NCBI RefSeq assembly: GCF_014736495.1
Contig: NZ_MDUX01000013.1
Coordinates: 1-64,000, forward strand
Direction of reading: 5' to 3'
Origin: Candidatus Dactylopiibacterium carminicum
GTDB lineage: Bacteria; Pseudomonadota; Gammaproteobacteria; Burkholderiales; Rhodocyclaceae
Length of the DNA: 64,000 nt
Below, piece after piece: positions 2,235 through 64,000 of the stretch. The position numbers were made by a program, and so were the translations under genes. The notes beneath the pieces were generated by a model that ran no database searches, was not told the DNA's origin, and saw only the letters and a list, made by a program, of their open reading frames with translations. Every line of letters starts with the position of its first letter. Position 1 is the stretch's first letter.

Positions 2235-5126
<2,892 letters not shown>

Positions 5127-7050: not shown

Positions 7051-7228
7051 CATCTGTCTTTGGTACCTGAGAGATTTCAACGCCTCTGCGTTGAGTGCCC
7101 CTTCGGTGGATGCGCTGAGCGCATCGCTCTCCAGATTTGCTGTTTTTCGTTCGGTCCTTTTGCCTGAGCGTTCCCGGGGGGTTGCGCCTTCGGCGGCCTG
7201 AATCATGCCAGCTCTCTCCCGAACGAGC
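7047..7228 (-). promoter_or_regulatory. Tandem glycine riboswitch (gcvT motif)
   Basis: Two glycine aptamers are readable on the minus strand. Aptamer 1 (about 7228-7150) contains GGGAGAG, CCGCCGAAGGCGCAA and ACGCTCAGGCAAAAGGACCGA. Aptamer 2 (about 7138-7047) contains TGGAGAG, CACCGAAGGGGCA and AATCTCTCAGGTACCAAAGACAGA. These match the conserved core of the glycine riboswitch, joined by a short linker. Position directly upstream of gcvT fits the known on-switch role, activating glycine cleavage when glycine is abundant. Exact aptamer ends are approximate. Confidence 0.95.
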
Positions 7229-7283
7229 CGCGACTCTAACCCGAGCCCGGACCGAACTCAAGGGGCTGCGCTAAACTGTTTCC

Positions 7284-8123
7284 ATGAAAGCCTTCAATGC
7301 TGATCTGCACTGTCATTCAACCTTCTCGGACGGGCTCTTGCCGCCGGCAGAGCTGATACGCCGCGCTCACGCCAATGGCGTCAGCCTGCTGGCACTGACC
7401 GACCATGACGAAACCGGCGGCCTTCCTCAGGCTCGGGCCGAGGCGGAAATCCTAGGTTTGCGTTTCGTGAATGGCGTGGAGATCTCCGTTTCCTGGCTGG
7501 ACCAGTCGGTTCATATCGTCGGTTTGGGATTCGATGCAGCCGATCCTGCGCTGCTGGCCGGGTTGGCGCAGGTGCGGGGCGGGCGTGATGCACGTGCGCA
7601 GCGCATGGGAGATGCGTTGGCGAAGATCGGCATCAAGGGCGTGTATGAAGGGGCATTGGCCTACGCTGGCAACCCGGCCCTGGTCTCGCGTGCCCATATC
7701 GCACGCCATCTGGTGAAGATCGGTATCGCGCGCGACGTGGCCAGCGTCTTCGATCATTATCTGGTGCGTGGAAAGCCCGGCTTCGTCGAGCATGAATGGG
7801 CCAGTCTGGAAGAGGCGTTGGGCTGGATCCATGGCGCCGGCGGCATTGCGGTGATCGCCCATCCGGGGCGCACGCGGGTCGACAAGGCCGGCATGGAGGC
7901 CTTGTTTGCCCGTTTCAAGGACCTGGGAGGGGAGGCTATCGAGGTCGTCTCCAGCACTCAGTGTGGCGCGGCTGCGCTGGAATTTGCCCGTGTGGCACGT
8001 CGTTATGATTTCCTCGCCTCGCGTGCCTCGGATTTTCATGGCCCGGGTGAGAGCAGCGTGGATCTCGGCCGGGCCGAGGTGTTGCCGCCGGATCTGACGC
8101 CGGTCTGGTCGCGTTTGGTGTAA
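7284..8123 (+). CDS. rnm: PHP-domain phosphoesterase (RNase AM / nucleoside 3',5'-bisphosphate phosphatase family)
   Basis: Metal-dependent PHP-fold hydrolase of the E. coli YciV/TrpH family, which removes phosphates from nucleoside 3',5'-bisphosphates and matures rRNA 5' ends. The 279-residue product has the PHP metal motifs DLHCHSTFSDG (7-17) and LTDHDE near residue 40, a histidine in AVIAHPGR, and a late metal motif ASDFHGPG. It is divergent from the riboswitch-controlled gcv operon and 33 bases ahead of yciO. The same pairing occurs in E. coli, which supports the assignment. The exact substrate is from the family, not from this sequence. Confidence 0.85.
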   Translation: MKAFNADLHCHSTFSDGLLPPAELIRRAHANGVSLLALTDHDETGGLPQARAEAEILGLRFVNGVEISVSWLDQSVHIVGLGFDAADPALLAGLAQVRGGRDARAQRMGDALAKIGIKGVYEGALAYAGNPALVSRAHIARHLVKIGIARDVASVFDHYLVRGKPGFVEHEWASLEEALGWIHGAGGIAVIAHPGRTRVDKAGMEALFARFKDLGGEAIEVVSSTQCGAAALEFARVARRYDFLASRASDFHGPGESSVDLGRAEVLPPDLTPVWSRLV

Positions 8124-9452: not shown

Positions 9453-10271
9453 ATGTTGCAGGTGCCGCAGCAAGGCGAACTGGTGCTCGCCCGCATCCAC
9501 GGCGAGCCCTTGCGCGAACTGCCCACGGATCTCTACATCCCGCCGAATGCGTTGGAGGTCTTTCTGGAAACCTTTGAGGGACCGCTGGATCTGCTGCTGT
9601 ATCTGATCCGGCGCGCCAATCTGGATATCCTCGACATTCCGATGGCTCCGCTGACAGCGCAGTATCTGGTCTATGTCGAAGCGATGCGCTCGAGCAATCT
9701 GGATCTGGCTGCGGATTACCTGCTGATGTCAGCGACGCTGCTGGATATCAAGTCGCGCATGTTGTTGCCCCGGCCGCCGCGCGAGACGGAGACCGAAGAA
9801 GAGGATCCGCGCGCCGAGCTGGTGCGACGGTTGATGGAGTATGAACAGATCAAGCGTGGCGCCCAGATGCTCAATGGCATTCCACGCGTCGAGCGGGATT
9901 TCGAATGGGTTGCGGTGCATGTGGCCGAGAAAACCGTGGAGCGCTTGCCCGAGGTCAGCCTTGCTGATCTGCAGACCGCCTGGTTGGCCCTGTTGCAACG
10001 GGCGCGCCTGCATCAGCATCACCGCATTCAGCGTGAGGAGTTGTCCGTGCGCGAGCACATGACAGGCATCCTGCGCCGGCTGCAGGGCGCCGGCGATCTA
10101 CCCTTCGAGCAGCTGTTCGAATTGACGCATGGTGTGGCCAGCCTCGTCGTGGGCTTTCTGGCTGTGCTGGAACTATGCAAGGAGCGCCTGGTGCGGGTGA
10201 CACAATTGGCGCCGATGGAACCGATCTATGTCCGACTCAACGACGCCACCGAACCCGTCCCTGCTGTCTGA
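9453..10271 (+). CDS. scpA: Segregation and condensation protein A
   Basis: Kleisin subunit that bridges the SMC heads in the bacterial condensin complex with ScpB. The 272-residue product has the family N-terminal segment FEGPLDLLLYLIRRANLDIL and the DYLLMSATLLDIKSRMLLP block, then a C-terminal winged-helix region. I start it at the ATG at 9453, five bases after the protease stop. The longer open frame from 8790 only exists because of the protease frameshift. It overlaps scpB by 44 bases, implying coupled translation. No smc gene is visible nearby. Confidence 0.92.
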   Translation: MLQVPQQGELVLARIHGEPLRELPTDLYIPPNALEVFLETFEGPLDLLLYLIRRANLDILDIPMAPLTAQYLVYVEAMRSSNLDLAADYLLMSATLLDIKSRMLLPRPPRETETEEEDPRAELVRRLMEYEQIKRGAQMLNGIPRVERDFEWVAVHVAEKTVERLPEVSLADLQTAWLALLQRARLHQHHRIQREELSVREHMTGILRRLQGAGDLPFEQLFELTHGVASLVVGFLAVLELCKERLVRVTQLAPMEPIYVRLNDATEPVPAV

Positions 10272-62634: not shown

Positions 62635-62763
62635 CTGGTTTGCCGGCCGGAGCGGATCTGTCCAGATTCTATGTTCGAGCGCAAGGTTTTGCGCTGGATC
62701 GTGTCCGCAGGTTTCGGGAGTCGGGAGTGGGGAGTCGCGTAGGGTGCGCCATCGCTTGGCACG

Positions 62764-62830
62764 CCAAATCCGTTCGCACCCTTAGACAATCTCAGGACAG
62801 GCTTCGAACCCTCAGTGCGAACGGATTTGG
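62764..62830. repeat. Palindromic repeat 1 (16-bp perfect arms)
   Basis: CCAAATCCGTTCGCAC (62764-62779) and GTGCGAACGGATTTGG (62815-62830) are perfect inverted arms with a 35-base spacer containing CTCAGGACAGGCTTCGAA. The spacer resembles the loop of the repeat at 62855-62888, so the two are probably related elements. Confidence 0.7.
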
Positions 62831-62888: not shown

Positions 62889-62914
62889 CGCCGACTGCCA
62901 TTGCAGTCACGTAG

Positions 62915-62945
62915 CCCGGATGCAGACCGAAGGCCGCAATCCGGG
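62915..62945. repeat. Palindromic repeat 3 (GTAGCCCGGATG type)
   Basis: CCCGGATGC (62915-62923) and GCAATCCGGG (62936-62945) form a stem with one extra base. The sequence GTAGCCCGGATG...GCAATCCGGG is a common interspersed element of beta/gamma-proteobacteria (from memory). Confidence 0.6.
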
Positions 62946-62986
62946 AAACCATCCGGTGTTCAGGCTCATGCCCGGAGCGGGGCCGT

Positions 62987-64000
62987 CTAGTCGATCTGTC
63001 TGCGCAGCACTCCAATGGGCGGCGCCCAGCTGTCCGCCGGCTTCTTCTTGCGCGTGACCAGGGTGAGCTGGGCGGGTTGAAAGACGTTGGCGTTGTGGGT
63101 GACCGGCGTGGTGATCAGGTATTGCGAGCGGGTGGCGCGCAGGAAGGCGCCGACGCGGTCGATGTTGGCCACGTCGAGGTGGGCGAAGGGTTCGTCGATG
63201 AACACGAAGCCTCCGGGGCGGGCGTCGTCCATCAGCAGACCGATCAGCAGGATCAGCGATTTCATCACCTGCTGGCCGCCCGAGGCCTCGCCGTCGTTGA
63301 GCGTCTGCGCGCCTTTCTGGTCGAAATCGAAGGCTACTTCGAGGCCGGCGGTGGCCAGCGTGGCGTCGTCGTTGTCCAGCGCCGGAACCGGGCATTCCAC
63401 ATGGATGCCGGCCAGCTCGCCCAGCGCGCGCAGGTTCTTGCCGTACTGGCGCACCGTGGCGCGCAGGCGCGCGATGTAGGCCGCGCGCGCCTCGTCCACC
63501 ATCTGCTTGGTGCGTTCGGCGTAGGCCATGCGCTGGCCGTAGTCTCCTTCGCGCTGGTGAAGTTCGAGGCCGAGTTTTTCCTTGATGACCAGCACGTTCT
63601 CGTCCGTGGGCCATTCGCTTTCATTGAGGCGGCGTTTGAGGCGCGAGAGTTCGTTGCGCGCGCCGGCCAGCCCGCCGTAATGCTCGGCGAGTTCCCCGAG
63701 CGCGGCGGGCGAAAGCCAGTCGCGCGGCATGCCGCGACGCTTGCCGCGTAATCTCAATAGGCGCGCGGTCTGCTCCAGGCGCTGCGGCCGCGATTCGCTG
63801 GCGATGCGGTTCAGCACCTCGCGTGCCTGCGCCAGATCGCGCGAGCGGCGGTCGGTTTCGATGGCGATGCCGGCCAGGCGCTCCTTGCATTGATCGACCC
63901 GGGCGCGTGCTTCGTTGAGCGTGGCTTCGGCATGTGCCAATGAGCCCTGCAGGCTCGCCTTGTCCTGTTCCGCAGCCTCGAATTCGCCCGCGCGCGCCAG
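62987..64000 (-). CDS. SMC-like coiled-coil ATPase, C-terminal part (runs off the window)
   Basis: The frame is open to the window edge, so only the C-terminal 337 residues or so are seen. Helical coiled-coil sequence (arginine/glutamate/alanine heptads) leads into an ABC-type head: signature EASGGQQVMKSL, Walker B GFVFIDEP, D-loop AHLD and switch His-like TTPVTHN. These are the head features of SMC/RecN/MukB-type proteins. Which system it belongs to (condensin, MksBEF, Wadjet JetC, Lamassu or another defence system) cannot be decided from this end. Repeats lie immediately downstream. Confidence 0.7.
   Translation of the reverse strand: MARAGEFEAAEQDKASLQGSLAHAEATLNEARARVDQCKERLAGIAIETDRRSRDLAQAREVLNRIASESRPQRLEQTARLLRLRGKRRGMPRDWLSPAALGELAEHYGGLAGARNELSRLKRRLNESEWPTDENVLVIKEKLGLELHQREGDYGQRMAYAERTKQMVDEARAAYIARLRATVRQYGKNLRALGELAGIHVECPVPALDNDDATLATAGLEVAFDFDQKGAQTLNDGEASGGQQVMKSLILLIGLLMDDARPGGFVFIDEPFAHLDVANIDRVGAFLRATRSQYLITTPVTHNANVFQPAQLTLVTRKKKPADSWAPPIGVLRRQID

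Follow-up and report, generated by a model that had tools for sequence, protein, structure and literature searches.

The 64,000-nucleotide stretch of Candidatus Dactylopiibacterium carminicum DNA analysed here (hereafter the window) ends inside an open frame on the minus strand (62987-64000) that encodes the C-terminal 337 amino acids of an SMC ATPase. The contig (G000:C69) has 71,182 bases, and reading another 7.2 kb past the window, in a numbering that continues the window's, gave the complete gene of 930 amino acids (C69:62987-65779, minus strand). The initial annotation, made from the window alone, had proposed an SMC-like ATPase truncated at the edge with its partners beyond it, and both points were borne out: the 930-residue protein matches Pfam SMC_N over residues 16-903 (1.7e-17), its ATPase motifs are intact, and kleisin-like and KITE-like genes lie to the right of the window. 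The ASGGQQ and FIDEPFAHLD sequences both fall in the 337-residue part, the Walker A sequence GPNGSGKTT lies close to the N-terminus, and the Walker A, signature and Walker B residues show no variation across 39 SMC homologues. The NCBIfam model SMC_prok_B gave only 97 bits against a cut-off of 567, so this is not the canonical Smc. As for the long coiled coil reported earlier, it stands as a prediction, the arms being placed at about residues 184-670 by the aligned SMC and JetC models.

In order of transcription, all on the minus strand, the genes are prfB (C69:68533-69435; named by eye), a Phd-type antitoxin (C69:68230-68505), a PIN toxin (C69:67859-68233), the 449-amino-acid kleisin-like gene (C69:66513-67862), the 237-amino-acid KITE-like gene (C69:65803-66516) and the SMC gene, with 4-nt overlaps at the junctions of antitoxin and toxin, toxin and kleisin-like gene, and kleisin-like and KITE-like genes. 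Past the 3' end of the SMC gene lie a sensor-kinase-like gene (by eye) on the opposite strand and an intergenic repeat (62911-62946), of which three further contigs of the genome hold copies 85-94% identical. The Phd-PIN pair is fronted by two copies of ACATGTACAT, seen by eye (C69:68230-68540, equivalent to L005:7731-8040), the second located at the antitoxin frame's first ATG. These copies could be a putative Phd-PIN operator, and thus the SMC operon may fall under toxin-antitoxin control in the window strain.

A scan of genome contigs yielded 101 relatives, and the 80 loci kept from it showed which of these genes belong together. The complete kleisin-KITE-SMC trio is present in 71 of the 80 loci; eight of the other nine are cut by the ends of their records, and L080 is a true exception. 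The only genes recurring in at least 30 of 87 clustered loci were the trio, prfB, lysS and a GGDEF gene (prfB and lysS named by eye, GGDEF by Pfam), the next best reaching 16. The toxin-antitoxin pair, tried as a conserved partner, was rejected and lies outside the conserved set: the antitoxin was matched in 2 of the 80 loci (L047 and L070) and the PIN toxin in the same two, in varying places. In both, antitoxin- and PIN-type genes stand before the kleisin gene and between the KITE and SMC genes (L047:1461-1688 and 3794-4422; L070:4239-4852 and 7130-7991). The gap between the KITE and SMC genes holds inserts of 0.3-1.7 kb in many loci and of 6 kb in L053. By eye, these are unrelated insertions that differ by lineage, and include a TrmA-like methyltransferase, a racemase-like protein and an MFS transporter (example coordinates L038:774-1880, L088:2498-3307 and L030:3311-4513). 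As the inserts differ between loci and none is recurrent, they were discarded as hidden partners. A single member (G030, L163:2179-3372) has a gene for an AAA_21/SMC_N-type ATPase between prfB and the kleisin gene.

The constancy of the kleisin-like and KITE-like partners bears on what kind of ATPase this is. Matches of the head and arms to the LmuB and Rad50 models could point to an SMC-like repair protein or an ABC-type defence ATPase (RecN, SbcC/Rad50 or Lamassu LmuB) with accidental neighbours. Besides its constant partners, however, the window SMC contains no CxxC, hence no zinc hook, and the four proteins encoded beside it (kleisin, KITE, PIN and Phd) gave no LmuA or LmuC in PADLOC and no Mre11 or SbcD in Pfam and NCBIfam, which makes this reading scarcely tenable. 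A RecN or SbcC among ordinary neighbours, which the initial annotation had named as evidence against a special system, is thus not what the locus holds. The partners suggested there were a kleisin, a nuclease or Jet- or Lmu-type genes: kleisin-like and KITE-like genes are present, and a nuclease and Lmu genes were not found. JetABD, MksEFG and LmuA/C, sought beside the SMC gene, gave no credible model match in the four neighbouring proteins, and the two partner genes were tentatively assigned from predicted folds and gene order.

By sequence, the 237-residue KITE-like protein had zero matches in Pfam, PADLOC and NCBIfam, and the 449-residue kleisin-like protein nothing credible in the same libraries; weak kleisin matches to an Rv3488-type small regulator (NCBIfam, far below the cut-off) and to JukB (PADLOC, 7.7e-5, likewise below it, in 1 of 41 members) were both read as a shared winged helix and set aside. 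The Jet models of PADLOC matched none of 41 kleisins. Pfam found nothing above chance common to many of 33 KITE homologues (one DUF4194 match, E 0.093), PADLOC gave one weak JetB1 match (E 0.0098) in two further KITEs, and a sequence-only search of solved structures with the kleisin and the KITE yielded no useful match. AlphaFold2 models were built on family alignments, that of the KITE being the L024 homologue, and are of middling confidence. The kleisin model (pLDDT 74, pTM 0.36) is laid out like a kleisin, with an N-terminal winged helix, long helices, a loose linker, and a C-terminal winged helix with a hairpin. In Foldseek it aligns best with a MukF-size chain of MukBEF (470 columns, E 1.2e-3, prob 0.96), at a TM of only 0.19 and an rmsd of 39. 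In VIA-align, helical exportin chains lead (Z 11.4 and 10.7), followed by MukF chains (Z 10.0-10.6, rmsd 10-25), a Wadjet-II JetABC chain (Z 9.8) and intermixed MarR-like chains. The KITE model is a winged-helix protein (pLDDT 66, pTM 0.48) whose top two VIA rows are JetB-size chains from JetABC of E. coli and of PA14 (Z scores of 7.7 and 7.3, with rmsd 5.5 and 5.4 across 104 residues), which MotA and MarR proteins equal, and whose Foldseek matches are mainly MarR-like winged helices (best E 0.053). In all these comparisons MukF, JetA and JetB were assigned to PDB chains by chain size, and the matches of both proteins have low TM-scores or high rmsd and are equalled by unrelated proteins. With hhalign, the kleisin and KITE profiles matched no known kleisin or KITE profile in our comparison panel (described below). 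In the controls known kleisin families missed one another in 3/3 pairs and known KITEs matched in 2/3, so the KITE-like protein is more divergent than the known KITEs are from one another. The weak structure matches, the constant gene order and operon logic together make kleisin and KITE the most suitable identities for the 449- and 237-residue proteins, but do not prove them.

The genomic position of the trio is also conserved. Upstream, prfB lies 5' of it in 56 of the 59 loci with more than 2.5 kb of room, and lysS lies 3' in 35 of the 63 with more than 4 kb. Among 61 relatives there are 17 SMC carriers, 13 of which have prfB 2.0-4.4 kb away; in one other (G005) prfB and the SMC gene are on separate contigs, and in three (G040, G049 and G056) prfB is elsewhere. 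Thirty of 60 prfB places were examined as loci, 16 of them from genomes without the SMC, and in 13 of these 16 lysS follows prfB within 1.4 kb (within 130 nt in seven of the 13). Since carriers have prfB 5' of the trio and non-carriers have prfB and lysS close together, the usual place of the operon in the family is between these two genes. Outside the family, prfB was beside the trio in none of the six carriers examined (G040, G049, G056, G426, G854 and G864); an ObgE-like GTPase gene (by eye) is 5' of it in G049 and G056.

Counting the window genome at every level, the SMC was found in 8/8 sampled genomes of the genus, in 63/199 genomes and 20/68 genera of the family, in 2/369 genomes of the class and in 4/349 of the phylum; in the class and phylum scans two candidates were scored per genome, so distant SMCs may have been missed. 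One pattern-based scan confirmed no SMC on viral contigs, and the kleisin occurs in no plasmid record and no phage record. On the 816-kb plasmid NZ_LR594690.1 of Variovorax sp. WDL1 (L205:7001-8902), a KITE fragment and a shortened gene for a 487-residue 'AAA family ATPase' lie between IS66 and IS1071 genes, and these pieces look like relics of the trio operon. The window genome also has a canonical Smc (C95:90857-94333; SMC_prok_B 1013.6 bits, cut-off 567) and, inside the window on the plus strand, its partner ScpA (9603-10235; PF02616). In G040, a genome given as 100% complete, Pfam found no ScpA, and the SMC trio might there be a stand-in for Smc-ScpAB.

To place the SMC among known systems, a comparison panel was assembled from operons that the Pfam MksE model picked out in 33 of 369 genomes of one class, with no hit in the window genome. 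It contains MukBEF-like, nuclease-less Mks-like and JetABCD-like sets, to which we gave the labels 'Muk', 'MksS' and 'Jet' on the basis of gene order and size. Library models are the sole representatives of Wadjet types II and III. The SMC profile matched JetC at 98.8%, the nuclease-less Mks-like panel at 97.2% and MukB at 86.7% (hhalign). In a tree of heads the family SMCs form a separate clade joined to JetC with 81% support, and mean head identities were 23.6% to Jet, 20.4% to Muk, 20.3% to Smc and 19.6% to the nuclease-less panel. The PADLOC JetC1 matches to the window SMC lie mostly over the arms. These results uphold the Jet-type relationship suggested by the initial annotation, as a Wadjet-related lineage some of whose members carry a linked JetD-like gene.

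Feature by feature, the trio resembles several systems and coincides with none. Like Wadjet (JetABCD, or MksBEFG), it has the order kleisin-KITE-SMC(-nuclease), a JetC-type SMC ATPase with intact Walker A, signature and Walker B and, in part of the family, a linked Toprim protein recognised as JetD. Unlike Wadjet, its kleisin and KITE go unrecognised by Pfam and PADLOC, whose Jet models give no JetA or JetB match for the window proteins; its SMC has 930 residues against 1124-1223 in the sampled JetC frames, with heads about 24% identical; and the nuclease was not found in most members of the family, including the window genome, where no JetD Toprim match was obtained, and the site is a housekeeping one. 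The trio shares with MukBEF the SMC-kleisin-KITE architecture and a kleisin model that aligns best with a MukF-size chain, but the two MukB sampled have 1472 and 1508 residues, and the window genome retains Smc and ScpA. It is, like Smc-ScpAB, a bacterial SMC complex with a kleisin and a KITE, but Smc and ScpA are separate in the window genome and the trio falls below the cut-offs of their models, SMC_prok_B included. With the MksBEF of Pseudomonas aeruginosa, as that system appears in excerpts of two papers (PMC7485682, PMC10586767), it has in common three genes in the same order, the absence of a nuclease and, probably, the status of an extra condensin beside Smc, a kleisin-KITE-SMC operon without a nuclease being what the window genome holds if the two partners are correctly assigned.

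This last likeness raises the alternative of a divergent MksBEF proper, of Pseudomonas type and originally nuclease-free, to which some lineages have added a JetD-like gene. The nuclease-less Mks-like operons agree with the trio in gene order and come close to it in SMC size (917-943 residues against 930 for the window SMC), and most carriers of the trio lack the JetD-like gene. On the other hand, the MksE model (PF21980), which does match in E. coli and Corynebacterium glutamicum, matched neither the window KITE nor 33 homologues, nor anything else in the window genome; the family SMCs form their own branch, with heads about 20% identical to those of the nuclease-less panel (a panel without the P. 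aeruginosa proteins), and by profile, identity and tree are nearer to JetC than to that panel. How the JetD-like gene is distributed also bears on the choice.

In the distant carrier G426 the next gene, for a 420-residue protein matched by PADLOC JetD1 (E 1e-10), overlaps the SMC stop codon. Homologues (hereafter D) stand behind the SMC gene in 15 of the 80 loci and are absent in 55 with more than 1.5 kb in view, ten loci being not judgeable. Since Pfam JetD_C (PF09983) alone is too insensitive for this D family, a family-specific profile was used instead; in a search of 80 genomes it found D in 17 of 71 SMC carriers and in none of nine non-carriers. All 17 D genes are on the contig of the SMC gene, on the same strand and downstream of it, the ends of the two matches lying some 10 nt to 5.5 kb apart. 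PADLOC JetD1 matched all 11 D members scanned (best E 3e-15 to 7e-9), and the 11 aligned members have the invariant Glu-Asn and DPDP-G motif expected for Toprim. In Pfam, DUF2399 was matched in 8/11, above the cut-off in five, and JetD_C in 1/11, below it. The hhalign score of D against six classical JetDs was 3.4%, in an alignment that still pairs both motif regions. D is thus best described as a putative divergent JetD-like Toprim protein, its JetD identity being taken from PADLOC.

In the window genome D was matched neither by Pfam JetD_C nor by the family's own profile, and that profile found none in seven other genomes of the genus; draft genomes may conceal the gene, although the window genome is 99% complete. 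A D remnant behind the window SMC was sought by relaxed tblastn and rejected, the hits being scattered (E 0.1-10); several D queries touch 62656-62766 at an unconvincing E of 1-3. Pfam JetD_C has hits in 5/61 relatives, and in three of them, the SMC carriers G002, G019 and G030, the hit is off the contig of the trio. D is broken in G504 (internal stop), G480 (two pieces) and L070 (frame closing after 47 residues), where sequencing error is possible. The IFDR motif of JetB, named in an excerpt of PMC10586767, was considered as a marker of contact with JetD, but visual inspection of KITE N-termini from 13 D-bearing and 14 of the 51 D-less members did not reveal it.

The history of D was followed on a quickly built tree of 75 SMCs, of which 15 have D; this tree carries long-branch warnings among distant rows and gives no direction of change. 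The presence of D requires at least 12 changes on this tree, 10 of them forced by starred branches, and shows hardly any clustering: shuffling gave a mean of 14 changes, and 42 of 500 runs needed as few as the real data. The close relatives of the window SMC, including L024, fall in one clade of 12 rows in which D is missing throughout; the deep lineages G426 and L098 carry it. Distances between D proteins follow those between SMCs (rho 0.74, n=12, Mantel p 0.0002), kleisins (0.72, n=11) and KITEs (0.64, n=11), and most groups are common to the D and SMC trees, L050 being an exception. Because D co-diverges with the SMC and changes state many times on the tree, an old D repeatedly lost would be likelier than a D repeatedly gained. 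The silence of the tree on direction leaves room for the MksBEF reading set out above, in which D was added, but the co-divergence and the presence of D in deep lineages weigh against it, and overall we hold it to be distinctly improbable.

Whatever the history of D, the nuclease-free trios are under strong purifying selection. In neighbouring pairs without D, the SMC gave a dN/dS of 0.03-0.20 (13 pairs); the kleisin spans the same range in 11 pairs, and the KITE has 0.01-0.25 in 12. Two D-bearing pairs gave 0.10 and 0.21 for the SMC. In no subunit was there a column fixed in the D-bearing trios yet below 30% in the D-less ones. From the low dN/dS and the lack of D-dependent columns, the trio seems to be kept by a function independent of D.

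We think it fairly probable that the SMC at the window edge belongs to a Wadjet-related (JetABCD/MksBEFG) branch not yet described, which in the window genome has shrunk to an SMC-kleisin-KITE complex that is nuclease-free and condensin-like. That the system is undescribed, as initially suggested, agrees with the finding of a conserved trio absent as such from the libraries used, and among the open-licence PMC papers retrieved none names this family in its title or abstract opening, the one paper with Wadjet and Thauera (PMC12013262) included. The SMC would be the motor of the complex, encoded in the order kleisin-KITE-SMC. In an early form of the branch, the gene immediately after the SMC would have encoded a Toprim nuclease resembling JetD; D would then have been lost in the window genus and many times elsewhere, with the other three genes kept by selection. 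The nuclease-free complex would most likely serve as a second condensin beside Smc-ScpA(B), in which the two SMC arms would meet at a hinge, the kleisin would close the assembly and the KITEs would help to hold DNA, so that upon ATP hydrolysis loops of chromosomal DNA would be extruded or held. We infer this role by analogy: in excerpts of PMC7485682 and PMC10586767, ATP-driven loop extrusion is thought typical of such SMC complexes, P. aeruginosa MksBEF is thought to act in this way on chromosomal DNA loops, and Wadjet is described as recognising smaller circular DNA, which JetD cuts.

Between the defence and condensin roles offered by the initial annotation, the condensin half is thus the better supported. 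Defence is possible in the nuclease-bearing relatives and, in the window genome, unproven and less likely, because no JetD-like gene was found there, all eight sampled genomes of the genus have the SMC, the trio sits behind prfB, and Smc and ScpA are also present. Even without JetD, the trio might nonetheless restrict phages or plasmids; it could trap or compact incoming circular DNA, or work with an unlinked or host nuclease. Such a function would suit the Wadjet kinship of the SMC and the linked D of its relatives, the patchy occurrence of the SMC outside the family, and the fusion of a Phd-PIN module to the operon in the window strain. It fits poorly with a gene that is constant in the genus, usually at one housekeeping site, with a kleisin missing from plasmid and phage records (where a single KITE fragment, on a plasmid, was found), with the failure of further partner genes to recur as the trio does, with the lack of a detected JetD-like gene in the window genome, and with the strong D-independent constraint on the trio; we therefore regard it as unlikely.

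The striking part of this finding is the family around the window gene, not the window gene itself. Related genomes hold the same three-subunit core with an intact, a damaged or an absent JetD-like gene, and since the same core exists with and without D, whether the SMC core does work by itself, and what the loss of the cutter changes, can be tested directly. As PADLOC misses the kleisin and the KITE, members with the nuclease probably fail to be registered as complete Wadjet systems. We consider it plausible, short of probable, that a plasmid-cutting SMC system has repeatedly, and recently, turned into a nuclease-free chromosome condensin within one family. If true, this would be an unrecognised further kind of Wadjet and a natural, independent case of the route proposed for MksBEF, and the system may illustrate the conversion of a defence machine into a housekeeping one.
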